From an uncultured Poribacteria bacterium (lineage in GTDB: Bacteria; Poribacteria; WGA-4E; WGA-3G), in NCBI GenBank assembly GCA_951812525.1, contig OX638316.1, positions 1,438,506 through 1,502,505 of the forward strand: a stretch of 64,000 nt of DNA. Direction: 5' to 3'. Below, in pieces: positions 25,657 through 34,935 of the stretch. The translations under genes and the position numbers were made by a program. The notes under the pieces are model-generated. The model was given only the letters and a program-made list of their open reading frames with translations, did not search any database and was not told where the DNA came from. The first letter of the stretch is position 1, and every line of letters starts with the position of its first letter.

Positions 25657-28197
25657 TTAGGATTTGACACCTTCCTCAAGCAGAGAAGAAGAGAGTTCAA
25701 TCTTAGCGGCATCAACAAGCGTTTCCTCAGTTTGGAGTGCCATAATACGTACACCTTGCGTATTTCGTCCAATGCGTCGAATATCCGAAACCGCTGTGCG
25801 GGTCACATACCCGTTTGAACTAATGAGAACAAGTTCATCGATCTTTGTGACGCGCTTTGCAGCAACAACTGCACCATTTCGCTTAGATTTTCCGATGGCA
25901 ATGATCCCTTTTCCACCGCGTTTTTGTGAACGATAAGCCAAAACAGATGTGCGTTTACCATACCCATTTTCTGTAACAATCAGCAGATCTTCTGCTTCCT
26001 TTTTCTTACCGGCACGCCGTGTTGGTTGTTCCTCTTCAGGCACCCCGCCTTTGACAATAACCATTTGCGCGACAAAGTCTTCGTCACCGAGTTCTATACC
26101 GCGGACCCCGCGTGTGTTACGTCCAAGAGGTCGGACCTCTTCTTCGCTGAATCGAATAGCAACGCCTTTGTGAGTGACGAGAATGACATCGTTGCTGCCG
26201 TCTGTCACTTGTGCCCCAATGAGCTTGTCACCATCATCAAGGTTAACAGCGATAATACCACTCGACAATGTGTTCTCGAAACTCGCAAGTTCCGTCTTTT
26301 TGACAACACCTTGCTGCGTTGCCATAAACACAAAAGCTTTCGCCACAGCACCATCCCCATTAGCATTAGCATCGCCATTCTTACGGGGAACCGGAACGTA
26401 TGCAGTTATATTCTCCTCCTGCGATAAGCGGAGTAAGTTGACTACCGCACGACCTGCTGATTGACGACGTGTTTCTGGAATTTGATAGACTTTCAGTGTA
26501 TAACATTTGCCCCAATCTGTAAAGAAAAGAATATTCTGATGCGCAGTCGCAACAAAAATATGCTCCAGAAAATCCCCATCTCTAGGCGCAGCACCCTTGA
26601 TCCCAACACCGCCGCGGTGTTGCTTCCGGTAGGTATCCATGGGCAGCCGTTTAATGTAACCGGCATGCGATAATGTAACCACCATCTCTTCGTCAGCAAT
26701 AAGGTCTTCAACCTCGAATTCCTTGACTTCGCCTGTAATTTCGGTGCGTCGCTCGTCGCCGTATTTTTCCTTGAGCGTTTCAAGTTCTGTGCGGATAATA
26801 TCCGTTATCAGTGTTTCACTGCCGAGAATTGCTCGAAGTTCCGCGATACGGTCCAGAATTTCAGTATATTCATCGTGAATGCGCTGGCGTTCGAGTCCCG
26901 TCAACTGTCGGAGCGTCATAGTGAGAATTTCTCTTGATTGTTGCTCGCTGAGTTGATAGGTGGCTTGAAGTTCCTGCTCCGCCGCTTGCGGTGATTCCGC
27001 AGTTTGGACAAGCTCTATGATTGCTTCAAGGTTTTGTAGCGCAAGCAGGTACCCTTCAAGGATGTGACTCCTGCGTTCGGCGCGTGCAAGGTCAAACTGC
27101 GTGCGGCGGCGAATCACATCCCGGCGGTGCGCGAGGTAGTGGTTGAGAATCTCCTCAAGCGTTAAAATCTTCGGAAGCCCATCAACCAAACAAAGCAGAC
27201 TCGCACTGAAATTCGTTTGCATCTGCGTGTGCTTATACAATTGATTGAGGATAACCTGCGCTATTTCCCCGCGCTTGAGCGGTATAACGATGCGAATGTC
27301 TTGGTCAGACTCATCCCGAATGTCAGAGATTCCCGTAATCGTCTTATTGACAACTAAATTGTACATCCGCTCAAGCAGCTGATTTTTCTTTACCTGATAC
27401 GGGATTTCAGTTATGATGATCTGTTCCCGTTCTGCTCCTGTGCCAGATGCTGGTGTAATTCTTTCTATGAACGCTTTAGCACGGATAGTGACGCTGCCTC
27501 TACCAGTGGCGTACATCTGCTTAATCCCGCTGGTGCCGACGATAATTCCCGAAGTCGGGAAATCAGGACCCGTGATGTGCTCCATGAGCGTTTCGGTATC
27601 AGCATTCGGATCCGCAAGTTTGCAGAGAAGCGCATCAACCACTTCGGTGAGGTTATGCGGTGGTATGCGGGTTAAATAACCCACACCAATACCCGTCGTA
27701 CCATTGACAAGCAGATTCGGTAGCAGACCAGGTAGGACTGTCGGTTCTTCAAGCGAGTCCTTGTAATTGGGCTGAAAATCTACTACTTGCTTCTCAATAT
27801 CGGTGAGCATCTCCGAAGCAATAGTAGCGAGCCGACATTCCGTGTAGCGCATCGCCCCCGGTGGATCGTCATCAATACTACCGAAGTTGCCCTGTCCGTC
27901 TATCAACGGGTAGCGCATGTTAAACGGCTGGGCTAAACCCACGAGCGTGCCATAAATCGGACCATCACCGTGTGGATGAAAGTTTTTCATCGCCTCTCCG
28001 ACAACGGCAGCACATTTGTCGTAAGGTCGATTTGAAGTGAGATTTATCTCTCCCATCGCGTAGATAATCCGACGGGTGCTCGGTTTGAGACCGTCGCGGA
28101 CATCGGGTATCGCACGGTTGGTATTGACACTCATCGCGTAAGTCAGGTACGATGTTGTCAATTCATTCTCTATGTTGCGTTCTTGGATGTTTTCCAT
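25657..28197 (-). CDS. gyrA: DNA gyrase subunit A
   Basis: 846 residues, normal length for GyrA. The DNA-breakage domain has IPDVRDGLKPSTRRIIYAM and the catalytic Tyr118 in AMRYTECR. The C-terminal beta-pinwheel has the gyrase-specific GyrA box as QKRGGKG (758-764), which argues for gyrase over topoisomerase IV. With GyrB it introduces negative supercoils. The quinolone-contact loop reads HPHGDGPIYG, so the positions equal to E. coli Ser83 and Asp87 are Gly79 and Gly83. gyrA follows gyrB on the same strand with a 197-base gap. No Shine-Dalgarno sequence precedes the ATG. Confidence 0.95.
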   Translation of the reverse strand: MENIQERNIENELTTSYLTYAMSVNTNRAIPDVRDGLKPSTRRIIYAMGEINLTSNRPYDKCAAVVGEAMKNFHPHGDGPIYGTLVGLAQPFNMRYPLIDGQGNFGSIDDDPPGAMRYTECRLATIASEMLTDIEKQVVDFQPNYKDSLEEPTVLPGLLPNLLVNGTTGIGVGYLTRIPPHNLTEVVDALLCKLADPNADTETLMEHITGPDFPTSGIIVGTSGIKQMYATGRGSVTIRAKAFIERITPASGTGAEREQIIITEIPYQVKKNQLLERMYNLVVNKTITGISDIRDESDQDIRIVIPLKRGEIAQVILNQLYKHTQMQTNFSASLLCLVDGLPKILTLEEILNHYLAHRRDVIRRRTQFDLARAERRSHILEGYLLALQNLEAIIELVQTAESPQAAEQELQATYQLSEQQSREILTMTLRQLTGLERQRIHDEYTEILDRIAELRAILGSETLITDIIRTELETLKEKYGDERRTEITGEVKEFEVEDLIADEEMVVTLSHAGYIKRLPMDTYRKQHRGGVGIKGAAPRDGDFLEHIFVATAHQNILFFTDWGKCYTLKVYQIPETRRQSAGRAVVNLLRLSQEENITAYVPVPRKNGDANANGDGAVAKAFVFMATQQGVVKKTELASFENTLSSGIIAVNLDDGDKLIGAQVTDGSNDVILVTHKGVAIRFSEEEVRPLGRNTRGVRGIELGDEDFVAQMVIVKGGVPEEEQPTRRAGKKKEAEDLLIVTENGYGKRTSVLAYRSQKRGGKGIIAIGKSKRNGAVVAAKRVTKIDELVLISSNGYVTRTAVSDIRRIGRNTQGVRIMALQTEETLVDAAKIELSSSLLEEGVKS

Positions 28198-28394: not shown

Positions 28395-30980
<2,586 letters not shown>

Positions 30981-31162: not shown

Positions 31163-31654
31163 TTATTTCTCGCTTTGTGTGGTGAAGAGCCGCCGAAGAG
31201 ATTTCTTCAATCTCGCATCTGTTACACTGGCAAGTGTCTGCTCAATTTGCTCTAATTCTTCAGGGGTTGTACGACGGGTGGTGTCAGTATTGGACTGTTT
31301 TGGTGGTTTAGATTGGGATTCGGGGGGCTTTGTTTCTGCATCGCGAGGTGTTACGGCGCGGATTTGGCGTAATTCTATCCGGAGATCTGTGAGAACAGAC
31401 TGTCCCAATTCCGCATTCAGGTTGGCTATGATTCTCTGTTTGAGGAATAGGAGTTCTCGCCTGTAAGGTGGATATTCAGTGTAGACTTTCAAGATGCCGT
31501 TTGAAAGCGATACCGGTATTGTTTTTGAGCCGAGCGGCGCACCGAGATGTTTGCGCCAGAGGTCGAAGACCTTCTGCTCCAGTATCTTAGGTTCAAGCTG
31601 GTTTTTCCGAATAAGTTCTGTGAGGAGATTGCGTAAATCCCGTGTTTTTTGCAT
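31163..31654 (-). CDS. dciA: DciA-like (DUF721) replicative helicase loader
   Basis: 163 residues from the ATG at 31654, with GAGG six bases upstream inside the end of recF; a TTG four codons earlier overlaps that site. The N-terminal 100 residues match DUF721/DciA: a helix LRNLLTELIRKN, the W-x-x-H-L-G segment after it, then ILKVYTEYPPYRRELLFLKQRIIANLN, the KH-like strand and helix. The rest is a Pro/Gln/Thr-rich linker and a short helical tail. DciA is the ancestral loader of the DnaB helicase in bacteria lacking DnaC or DnaI. Its place between recF and gyrB at the origin is the usual one. Confidence 0.8.
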   Translation of the reverse strand: MQKTRDLRNLLTELIRKNQLEPKILEQKVFDLWRKHLGAPLGSKTIPVSLSNGILKVYTEYPPYRRELLFLKQRIIANLNAELGQSVLTDLRIELRQIRAVTPRDAETKPPESQSKPPKQSNTDTTRRTTPEELEQIEQTLASVTDARLKKSLRRLFTTQSEK

Positions 31655-31662
31655 CTGGCACC

Positions 31663-33033
31663 TCAACTCGAAGCGATGGAACTTATCTGAGCATCCTTGA
31701 CATTTAAAACATTCGGTTCATGAAGATGGTGTACGAGCGGTTCGGCGTGCGTCGCTGTAATGAAAGTCTGTGCACTCAGATTTTGGAGAACACCCAGCAG
31801 GTAACCTATGCGTTTGTAATCCAGTTCCGAAGTGACATCATCCAAAAGCACTATCGGATTCCTTCCTGTTGTGGCGCGAATCAACTCTAATTCTGCCAGT
31901 TTTAGTGCTAACGCGATTGTCCGCTGCTGACCCTGCGACCCGTAAGCGCGCGCTACCTCCCGGTATATTTCGAGGTCTTCCCTTGAGAATTGATATTCGC
32001 TATAAACTGACTCAACTTTCGGTTCCGAAAGTTGAATTAGTTCATCCGTCATCTCTTCGTCACTGTTATCCGAGATGTGCGGTTCATTCTCGCTTAGAAG
32101 CGTATGTGATTGATGCTCCAATTCGATCAGAAAATCGTCGCGATGCGGTCCAACCAATGTTGTCCCTCTCTGGAGATCCGCGGCGCGTGAAGCACTTAAC
32201 GTCGCGCCAAATTGCTTGTTAACCTCGCTTTCGCTCGGAACCTTAACCGATTCAACTCCAGATTCAGCCAATGAATTTGCGTTTGTAGATGCGGGCTCCG
32301 AATTATTATCCTTTACACTGTCCATTGACGCATCGTCCCGCACTGATGCGGAACGATACGTCAATGCTAGGCTTTCCCGACCACCCGTAAGTTTTTGGTG
32401 GTTTTTCATTGCATAAGCCTTAAGTTGGTGAAATACTTCTAAACGCTTTATAGTAACAGCAGTACCGTGTATGAGCAAAAGCTGATCCCAAGCGTCTAAC
32501 TGCGCTGCATCCACAAAGATTGTACGAATTTGCTTTAGTAGTTCGTTCCGTTGTTTGAGAACTGACTGATATTTCTGCAAATGCTGCAGATAATCGCGAT
32601 CAATCTGCGCGATAAGCAGATCGAGAAATCTCCGTCGTTCGGCTGGTGCTCCCTTTACCAATATTAGGGATTCAGGTGCGAAAAATACGGCGTTAAACTG
32701 CCCAATCCACTCAGAGCGCTTAGTATGAAGAACACCATTCTTTTTCAATCTAAACTGCCCACGTGCACGCTTCGATGCCTCAAGAGATACCACATCGTTG
32801 CTGCTATTGGTCAGTACACCTTTCAGGTAAAAGCCAGCTTCATTATGTCGGATGAGTTCGGCATCTCGCATGGCACGGTGGGATTCGGCGGTGCAGAGGA
32901 AATAAATCGCCTCAAGTAGGCTAGTCTTTCCTTGCGCGTTCCCGCCGATAATCAGATTAACCGGCTTGGAGAAACTCACTTCACAATCAATATAATTACG
33001 AAAATTACGTAAAACGATCTGGTTTAACAACAT
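31663..33033 (-). CDS. recF: DNA replication and repair protein RecF
   Basis: 456 residues, about 90 longer than most RecF proteins. Walker A is GGNAQGKTS (30-38), the ABC signature is SQGQQRT (366-372), and Walker B is IVLLDDVTSELD (ending about 405). The extra length is a Ser/Asp/Glu-rich insertion near residues 225-325 that looks unstructured. RecF loads RecA at gaps with RecO and RecR. Only eight bases separate its stop from the dciA start, and the dciA ribosome site lies in the last recF codons, so the two are coupled. The adjacent upstream element is oriC; dnaN, which normally precedes recF, is absent. Confidence 0.92.
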   Translation of the reverse strand: MLLNQIVLRNFRNYIDCEVSFSKPVNLIIGGNAQGKTSLLEAIYFLCTAESHRAMRDAELIRHNEAGFYLKGVLTNSSNDVVSLEASKRARGQFRLKKNGVLHTKRSEWIGQFNAVFFAPESLILVKGAPAERRRFLDLLIAQIDRDYLQHLQKYQSVLKQRNELLKQIRTIFVDAAQLDAWDQLLLIHGTAVTIKRLEVFHQLKAYAMKNHQKLTGGRESLALTYRSASVRDDASMDSVKDNNSEPASTNANSLAESGVESVKVPSESEVNKQFGATLSASRAADLQRGTTLVGPHRDDFLIELEHQSHTLLSENEPHISDNSDEEMTDELIQLSEPKVESVYSEYQFSREDLEIYREVARAYGSQGQQRTIALALKLAELELIRATTGRNPIVLLDDVTSELDYKRIGYLLGVLQNLSAQTFITATHAEPLVHHLHEPNVLNVKDAQISSIASS

Positions 33034-33099: not shown

Positions 33100-33450
33100 C
33101 CCTGATTAAAAATTTTTTTCTAGTTTTGCACAGTTTCTAATTCTTATACTAAGTACAATTTATATATGAGTTTTAATTATTTAGTAGTATTAGTAGGGGC
33201 TGTGGATAAGTGGATAACTCGTCTAAACCCTTATGGTTACTGACTTTTCCCTGTTGATAGATTGTTGATAACTTTCTGACTTATCAACAGGTTATCAACA
33301 AAAAGAGGAAATATGCAAGTTATCAACAAGTTATCAACAAGTTATCAACAGGTTTAGCAAAGTTATGCACAAGTTATCAACAAGTTTTTTACAAAGTTAT
33401 GCACAAGTTATCAACAGGTTTAGCAAAGTTATGCACAAGTTATCAACAAA
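33100..33450. other. Chromosomal replication origin (oriC)
   Basis: The recF-dnaA spacer has an A/T-rich unwinding region (33100-33181), then five TAG/TAT trios on the plus strand (33182-33196), a GGGC spacer, and TGTGGATAA at 33201-33209, which is a perfect TTATCCACA box on the minus strand. A second reverse box is at 33263-33271. Forward TTATCAACA boxes start at 33281, 33292, 33320, 33331, 33342, 33374, 33408 and 33440; forward TTATGCACA boxes start at 33363, 33397 and 33429. Many neighbours are exactly 11 bp apart. Box, G/C spacer and trios together match the bacterial origin unwinding element described in Bacillus subtilis, where DnaA-trios load DnaA onto single strands. Confidence 0.93.
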
Positions 33451-33555: not shown

Positions 33556-34935
33556 CTAACGGAATTGATCGAGTAGCATCATAATTGATTCACGTTCATC
33601 ATCACTTTCGTCTATCATTTTCTCGATCTGCTTGCATGCGTGAATGACAGTCGTATGGTTTTCCCTATTAAAGGATTGTGCAATGTTGGAGTATGACATT
33701 TGTGTCAGTTCCCGGCACAGATACATAGCGACTTGGCGTGGCTGTACCAATTCCTTGGTTCGCTTCTGAGACACAAGATCTGATGGATCAATACCAAAAT
33801 AGTCAGCGACGGCTGTCTGTATTGCCTTTGCTGTAGCGGTTTTCCGCTGACGGAGTGGCGAGGTGGAACCGACATCACCAAGAATTTGTCGAGCAAACTC
33901 CACACTCAGGTTCTCCTTAAGTATTGAAGCTTGTGCGATAAGGCGAACGAGTGTACCTTCTAATTCTCGAATATTGGTCGTGACCATCTCGGCGATGTAG
34001 CTAATTACCTCATTAGGGAGATGTGTCATTCCCTGATCTTGGCATTTTTGTTGGAGAATCGCGATACGCATCTCATATTGTGGTCGATCTATTTCAGCGA
34101 CCATACCCCACTCAAAGCGTGAGCGGAGGCGTTCCTCCAAGTTCTCCAGATTACCCGGAGGGCGGTCACTGGTCATGACTATCTGGTTTGAATTCATGTG
34201 GAGGTCGTTAAAGGTATTGAAGAATTCTTCCTGTGTACCCTCTTTGCGTTGCAAAAACTGTATGTCATCAATGAGAAGCATATCAGCCGTTCGATATTTT
34301 GTCCGAAAGCCTTGTGCCGATGTACGGTTAACAATGGATTCCACATACTCATTCATAAAGGTTTCTGATGTAACATACAGCACTTTCTTTTCCGGCTGGT
34401 GCACTGAAAGTCGATTGCCAATGGCGTGTAGCAAATGCGTTTTGCCCAACCCTACTTCGCCGTAGATAAAGAGCGGATTATAGTCACGACCCGGATTTTC
34501 CGAGACAGCCAGAGCTGTCGCGTGACACACGCGATTGCTGGAGCCAACGATGAATCTATCAAACCGATAATTCGGATTCAATCCTGTCTGAACTTGTCGG
34601 GGTCGGGTGGGAGGATCATCAACGGAGGTGTTGTTTAAGCTAATCAGTTCTTCGGACTGCGTCTCGCTAACATCTTCGCTTTCATCGGTACTTGATTCGT
34701 CTACAGTGAGGATCAGGGCACACCGGGCACCAATTAATGTGGCTAACACCCGTTGGATATCAGCGCGGAACCGCTCTTCAATTCTCGCACGCGTGTACGC
34801 TGAAGGGACAGCTATCTTCAACGCTTCTGCTGTAATTGAGAGTGGAACTGCTTGATGAAGATAGACGTCTTGTCGCGCTGCATCGCTGAGTTTTTCCAGT
34901 ATTTCTAACCAAATTTCATTTGGGGTCTGCCGCAT
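33556..34935 (-). CDS. dnaA: Chromosomal replication initiator DnaA
   Basis: 459 residues in four domains: an N-terminal interaction domain (1-75), an acidic linker (80-118), an AAA+ ATPase with Walker A GEVGLGKTH (159-167) and Walker B LLIDDIQFL, and a C-terminal DNA-binding domain from about 365. The DNA-binding signature reads NRENHTTVIHA (423-433), where nearly all DnaA proteins have G-G-R-D-H-T-T-V. The residue equal to E. coli Asp433 is Asn426, Arg432 is Glu425, and Pro423 is Ser416; Arg399 is kept as Arg392. A strong promoter lies at 35092-35120. It binds the boxes of the adjacent oriC and opens the duplex. Confidence 0.95.
   Translation of the reverse strand: MRQTPNEIWLEILEKLSDAARQDVYLHQAVPLSITAEALKIAVPSAYTRARIEERFRADIQRVLATLIGARCALILTVDESSTDESEDVSETQSEELISLNNTSVDDPPTRPRQVQTGLNPNYRFDRFIVGSSNRVCHATALAVSENPGRDYNPLFIYGEVGLGKTHLLHAIGNRLSVHQPEKKVLYVTSETFMNEYVESIVNRTSAQGFRTKYRTADMLLIDDIQFLQRKEGTQEEFFNTFNDLHMNSNQIVMTSDRPPGNLENLEERLRSRFEWGMVAEIDRPQYEMRIAILQQKCQDQGMTHLPNEVISYIAEMVTTNIRELEGTLVRLIAQASILKENLSVEFARQILGDVGSTSPLRQRKTATAKAIQTAVADYFGIDPSDLVSQKRTKELVQPRQVAMYLCRELTQMSYSNIAQSFNRENHTTVIHACKQIEKMIDESDDERESIMMLLDQFR

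Follow-up and report, generated by a model that had tools for sequence, protein, structure and literature searches.

The region between dnaA and recF in the stretch of DNA analysed here (the window, 64,000 nucleotides, bases 1438506-1502505 of the single-contig genome G000 of 5,062,467 bp) is almost certainly a chromosomal replication origin, oriC, of the type that opens through a basal unwinding system (BUS). Beyond the AT-rich core of this origin we found a second set of DnaA-trios, on the opposite strand and facing inward, with a DnaA box of its own. As an account of the whole locus, we consider it likely that an oriC with a BUS is combined with an opposite-strand second DnaA track that would serve a second helicase.

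Phased DnaA boxes and the forward unwinding element

The DnaA assembly array on the plus strand (33281..33448) consists of 11 boxes in blocks of 2-3-2-2-2 with 2-bp linkers, and these blocks are conserved in the genus. Eight of the boxes are TTATCAACA (starts 33281, 33292, 33320, 33331, 33342, 33374, 33408 and 33440) and three are TTATGCACA (starts 33363, 33397 and 33429); TTATCAACA has 9 copies in the window compared to 0.63 expected. The doublets starting at 33363, 33397 and 33429 follow each other in steps of 34 and 32 bp. The 5.06-Mb genome contains the 2-bp-linked doublet TTATNNACANNTTATNNACA six times, always inside the array, and the reversed control of the doublet pattern nowhere. Between the array and the unwinding element, and facing the latter, lies an inverted pair of boxes 11 bp apart on the minus strand (33252..33271), formed by TTATCAACA at 33263-33271 and CTATCAACA, with one mismatch, at 33252-33260.

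The unwinding element begins with a core box pair, TTATCCAC/TTATCCACA, that adjoins the trios on the minus strand (33201..33217) and has a one-base overlap: TTATCCACA is read on the minus strand at 33209..33201 and overlaps TTATCCACT at 33209-33217. It is followed on the same strand by the GC-rich spacer GCCC (33197..33200) and by the forward DnaA-trio array CTA-CTA-ATA-CTA-CTA (33182..33196), beyond which an AT-rich core (33152..33181, 87% A+T, 23-30 bp in relatives) separates the two trio arrays. A BUS-type oriC is expected to have a box no more than 16 bp from at least three trios of the right polarity, and TTATCCACA-GCCC-CTACTAATACTACTA on the minus strand has this arrangement. In B. subtilis, the middle base of each trio on the bound strand is recognised by Asn187 of DnaA (PMC10721633). 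When the window DnaA was aligned to 8btg, the B. subtilis BUS complex, the residue matching Asn187 was conserved, and the initiator-specific motif was present, with FTNEF aligned with FMNEY and Ile190 aligned with Val. In its box, GC spacer and trios, this part of the origin corresponds to the known basal unwinding system and is therefore ordinary. The earlier note on this DNA had described the eleven forward boxes, the three doublets repeating every 32-34 bp and the minus-strand box, spacer and five trios, and we recovered all of them at its coordinates, exact to the base; the inverted boxes and TTATCCACT are additions to it.

The box period inside the blocks is exactly 11 bp, and the steps between blocks in the window are 28, 21, 23 and 21 bp. 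Because the five block starts alone show no significant helical phasing (Rayleigh test, R=0.62, P~0.15), the proposal of the earlier note that DnaA is placed on one face of the helix is sound inside the blocks and is established there only. A 2-bp linker between direct boxes is the best spacing for dimers of T. maritima DnaA (PMC10316083), so the spacing of the array has a known meaning; tandem boxes with 2-bp linkers are a known optimum for DnaA oligomerisation and are no novelty. The gaps at 33353-33361, 33385-33393 and 33419-33427 hold degenerate box-like 9-mers (TTTAGCAAA, TTTTTTACA) 11 bp past the preceding box, which are possibly low-affinity sites that fill the array.

For comparison, we assembled 33 same-genus origins, the window included, that were chosen for having dnaA, the box region and recF adjacent. 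They contain 165 cases of neighbouring boxes that point the same way and lie closer than 20 bp, and in 164 of these the spacing is exactly 11 bp; unphased boxes in relatives, which the earlier note had named as evidence against its reading, are thus not what the genus has. Counted from the core box, the inverted pair is retained near -63/-52 in most origins, as are a pair near -92/-81 and two to three boxes near -142/-131/-120, with further blocks beyond. The inter-block steps across the genus are mostly 21-23 or 28 bp, and the 32-34-bp doublet repeat is an array extension found in the subclade of the window. The box type is nearly uniform within many of these origins, either all TTATCCACA or nearly all TTATCAACA, which suggests concerted evolution of the array.

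The box type also follows the recognition helix of DnaA. Where the residue aligned with E. coli D433 is D, the boxes are TTATCCACA and a TTATCAACA array is found in 0 of 15 tree rows; TTATCAACA-type arrays occur only without D, in 29 of 42 such rows. The tree contains only four well-supported independent pairs for this link between D/N and box type, too few for a sign test or for statistical significance. In the related genus g20, all origins whose DnaA has the helix NHRTITYA carry TTATTATCA boxes, which are missing from those with NHTT; helix (NHTT to NHRT) and box type (to TTATTATCA) each change three times on the tree, and the changes are matched (L166-L181, downstream of dnaA). D433 was assigned to box position 7 (PMC8235120), whereas the box change here is at position 6. 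Together, these patterns suggest that initiator and box evolve together, which may explain why the main box of the window, TTATCAACA, departs from the usual TTATNCACA. The g20 origins with TTATTATCA boxes retain the 11-bp period; that box and recognition helix change jointly while the period stays suggests that spacing is constrained separately from the box sequence.

A mirror module on the opposite strand

The earlier note had seen the forward half of the unwinding element and missed a mirror module on its far side, which on the plus strand, reading inward, is TTTTGCACA-GTTT-CTA-ATT-CTT-ATA-CTA (33124-33151). It comprises a mirror DnaA box, TTTTGCACA (33124..33132, plus strand), with one mismatch to TTATGCACA, and, 4 bp further in, the mirror DnaA-trio array CTA-ATT-CTT-ATA-CTA (33137..33151, plus strand; P 0.030 versus shuffles). 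A five-trio in-register mirror block is present in all 33 same-genus origins, 23-30 bp from the forward array. An inward-facing mirror box is exact (TTATCCACA or TTATCAACA) in 23 of these origins and has one mismatch in 6 more, giving 29 of 33, and in most cases 3-4 bp separate it from the mirror trios; L009 and L022 are among the origins in which it is intact. The box is lost in L007, L008, L028 and L032; it is decaying in the subclade of the window, where L007 and L008 are already without it.

The search pattern fixed the outer trios and left the three inner trios free. In the inner trios of the 16 distinct blocks the first base is free (A14 C13 T12 G9), T occupies the middle position in 44 of 48, and the third position holds A or T in all 48. 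This is the known DnaA-trio constraint, in which the middle base is the one read by Asn187, the residue kept here. In strength the mirror trios fall short of the forward ones, their first base often being other than C.

We then took the 65 bp that lie past the forward trios, scored their opposite strand with a trio matrix set in advance from the published consensus, and compared the score to dinucleotide shuffles. The mirror-strand score was above the shuffles, with an enrichment P of 5.7e-7 for one median P per genus in 12 genera, compared to 0.10 for the same-strand control; the genus medians were used to avoid selection, an earlier combination on hand-picked genus representatives having given P 6.3e-8. 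Within the genus, single-genome P values were modest (mostly 0.003-0.15). The clearest mirror arrays come from outside the family of the window, one of them from another class, and include four CTA trios in L054, CTA-CTA-TTA-CTA in L184, CTA-CTA-CTA-TTA in L049 and CTT repeats in L043. In L050, from another family, both arms consist of CGA trios; in B. subtilis, activity survives a middle C on the bound strand, and the CGA-type middle-base variant was shown to be active (PMC10721633). By the shuffle test the mirror array was undetectable in f2, g9 and most of g20. The scan for opposite-strand trios covered Poribacteria and, as a control, 38 actinobacterial dnaA loci; only 3 of the latter had three CTA repeats, and no mirror array was visible in those 3. 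We found no description of trio arrays on both strands in the literature covered, which took in subscription papers and bioRxiv to a limited extent.

From these sequence patterns, we regard the chances as evenly balanced that the mirror module functions as a second DnaA track. The alternative that survives best is plausible, although we give it well under an even chance: the origin would be an ordinary one-sided BUS, as the described BUS is (PMC8287927), and the mirror block would be AT-rich unwinding DNA or the recF promoter, trio-like by chance or shared ancestry. The weakness of the mirror trios, their absence from several lineages and the modest single-genome P values are what such an origin would lead one to expect. 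Against it stand the three-base constraint over the distinct inner blocks, the contrast between the combined P and the control strand, and the adjacent inward-facing box in most of the genus. For the promoter variant, the region does contain weak promoter-like matches, at about the rate of shuffled sequence, and the distance of the mirror box to recF is not conserved (75 to 241 bp); we rejected the mirror block as a promoter on the level of these matches.

An improbable alternative is that the inverted trios pair as a hairpin or cruciform when the origin melts, so that selection acts on base pairing and not on recognition by DnaA. Any mirror trios make up an inverted repeat by necessity, and strong hairpin potential was indeed found in L184, L054, L022, L021 and L035 (z about -2.8 to -3.9), with perfect palindromic cores in some genomes. 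However, there is no excess in the window (z -0.30) or in L007, L012, L015, L025, L034, L118 and L043. The arms differ, mostly at the first trio positions, without compensation, and in L043 mirror CTT trios stand opposite forward CTA trios, non-pairing yet trio-like. When DNA folding was compared to shuffles, pairing between the arms was not conserved, and a conserved hairpin or cruciform was rejected. Because the hairpin excess is patchy and the arm differences are uncompensated, trio recognition explains the pattern better.

Genomic setting and identity as oriC

The locus belongs to a sponge-associated Poribacteria bacterium; in the named collections, the closest relatives of the window DnaA are all from Candidatus Poribacteria metagenome-assembled genomes. 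The gene order is dnaA–oriC–recF–dciA–gyrB–gyrA, with the genes on the minus strand; rpmH and ispH lie on the opposite strand, upstream of dnaA. dnaA (33556..34935) encodes a four-domain initiator of 459 aa (TIGR00362, E 8e-151; Bac_DnaA and Bac_DnaA_C above cut-off). The other genes are recF (31663..33033; TIGR00611, E 1e-99), dciA (31163..31666; DUF721, PF05258, E 8e-14), which encodes the replicative helicase loader, gyrB (28395..30941; NCBIfam NF011501, E 1e-303; TIGR01059, E 6e-276) and gyrA (25657..28197; TIGR01063). The site thus lies where a bacterial oriC is expected, at dnaA amid replication genes, and the surroundings are a classic origin neighbourhood, save that dnaN is gone from between dnaA and recF. 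This gene context, the genome-wide uniqueness of the doublets and the 33 like-spaced related origins support the oriC with trios and 11-bp box pairs that the earlier note had proposed.

The GC skew, which the same note had suggested as a check, fits the site in a relative and does not place it in G000. In G028, the nearest complete relative, the third-position skew optimum is at 4.85 Mb and dnaA at 4.98 Mb, ~135 kb apart; in G010, where the signal is weak, the raw skew has its optimum at 2.30 Mb, near dnaA at 2.35 Mb. In G000, the skew obtained from 40 sampled 20-kb stretches and the window resolved no origin and did not point to 1.47 Mb (P 0.36). Skew therefore neither confirms nor refutes the oriC site in G000 and supports the site in G028. 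Relative to G028, the G000 skew is weak and scrambled, which suggests many rearrangements or an assembly error. That the box array serves chiefly in DnaA titration or regulation (datA- or DARS-like) while replication starts at another place is very improbable: dense boxes immediately behind dnaA and a G000 skew that lends the site no support would suit it, but the array terminates in a core box, GC spacer and trios adjoining an AT-rich core, the genome has no further doublet elsewhere, the G028 skew fits the site, and dciA, recF and the gyrase genes are adjacent.

Several observations concern dnaN and dnaA elsewhere. dnaN is absent from the dnaA-recF locus in the genus of the window and is retained there in G044 (f4); three dnaN-like genes are scattered on chromosome C1 of G000 (668364, 4462275 and 2420648), one of them in a 588-aa frame. 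Genomes of families f2 and f4 (G036, G038, G039, G041, G043-G049) have a second DnaA-like gene of about 390-440 aa, whose products have about 40% identity to the window DnaA with the match beginning past domain I. In L039 (G034:C162:33167-34505), the dnaA match is split into two pieces in different frames, probably by an assembly frameshift. In family f3 (L241/G037, L242/G040, L243/G042), searches by protein, TIGR00362 or PF08299 found no DnaA; these three genomes are of 5-7 Mb, two of them 96% complete, and L241 has an unbroken stretch running from ispH to dnaN-recF-dciA that contains neither dnaA nor a box or trio cluster. This looks like the loss of dnaA plus its origin in a non-reduced bacterium.

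Helicase loading and comparison with known systems

DnaA oligomerises from boxes onto the trios of one strand and thereby opens the origin (PMC8287927, PMC10721633). How bacterial origins place the second helicase on the other strand is an acknowledged open question (PMC10201434, PMC13326638), and for B. subtilis it was proposed that DnaD bound opposite the trios loads it (PMC10201434). DnaD (TIGR01446) was found in none of eight Poribacteria genomes, with the B. subtilis and L. lactis control genomes positive; dciA is encoded once in the eight genomes searched, G000 having a sole copy, directly behind recF in the window.

For the locus studied here, we infer DnaA binding, origin opening and helicase loading from the sequence. 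DnaA would bind the phased arrays and the core box pair, where the 2-bp linkers would permit head-to-tail contacts between protomers. By homology with the B. subtilis basal unwinding system, the filament would then cross the GC spacer from the core box onto the trios of one strand and open the AT-rich core. The inward-facing box and the five in-register trios beyond the core may provide a second filament track on the opposite strand and with opposite polarity, so that two converging DnaA filaments would mark the two strands and set where each helicase enters. DciA-assisted loading of DnaB could then place one helicase in each direction. Tentatively, and at somewhat less than even chances, we propose a Poribacterial two-sided unwinding element in which converging box/trio modules direct opposite DnaA filaments and DciA loads one DnaB per strand. 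If true, this would be a sequence-encoded answer to second-helicase loading without DnaD, and a natural origin with trios on both strands, with DciA and no DnaD, makes the simple symmetric model testable.

The idea of more than one unwinding element is shared with the Streptomyces origin, for which Plachetka 2019, as cited in PMC7561715, reportedly described two putative unwinding elements. C. difficile oriC2 and H. pylori oriC2 (PMC7561715, PMC8235120) share boxes, a GC stretch and CTA-type trios by the unwinding region; these origins differ in being bipartite around dnaA, and no mirror trio array was found in the passages covered. The oligomerisation regions of T. maritima and E. coli share direct boxes with 2-bp linkers and oppositely oriented arrays, whereas the array here is longer and near-consensus (11 boxes and the inverted pair), with a box type that is often uniform per genome. 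With the B. subtilis BUS, the window shares tandem boxes, a short GC-rich spacer, same-polarity trios, an AT-rich core and Asn187. In contrast to B. subtilis, its genome is without DnaD and has DciA as the helicase loader, the trios are followed by a 23-30 bp core that is flanked on both sides, and the window adds an opposite-strand trio array with its own box.
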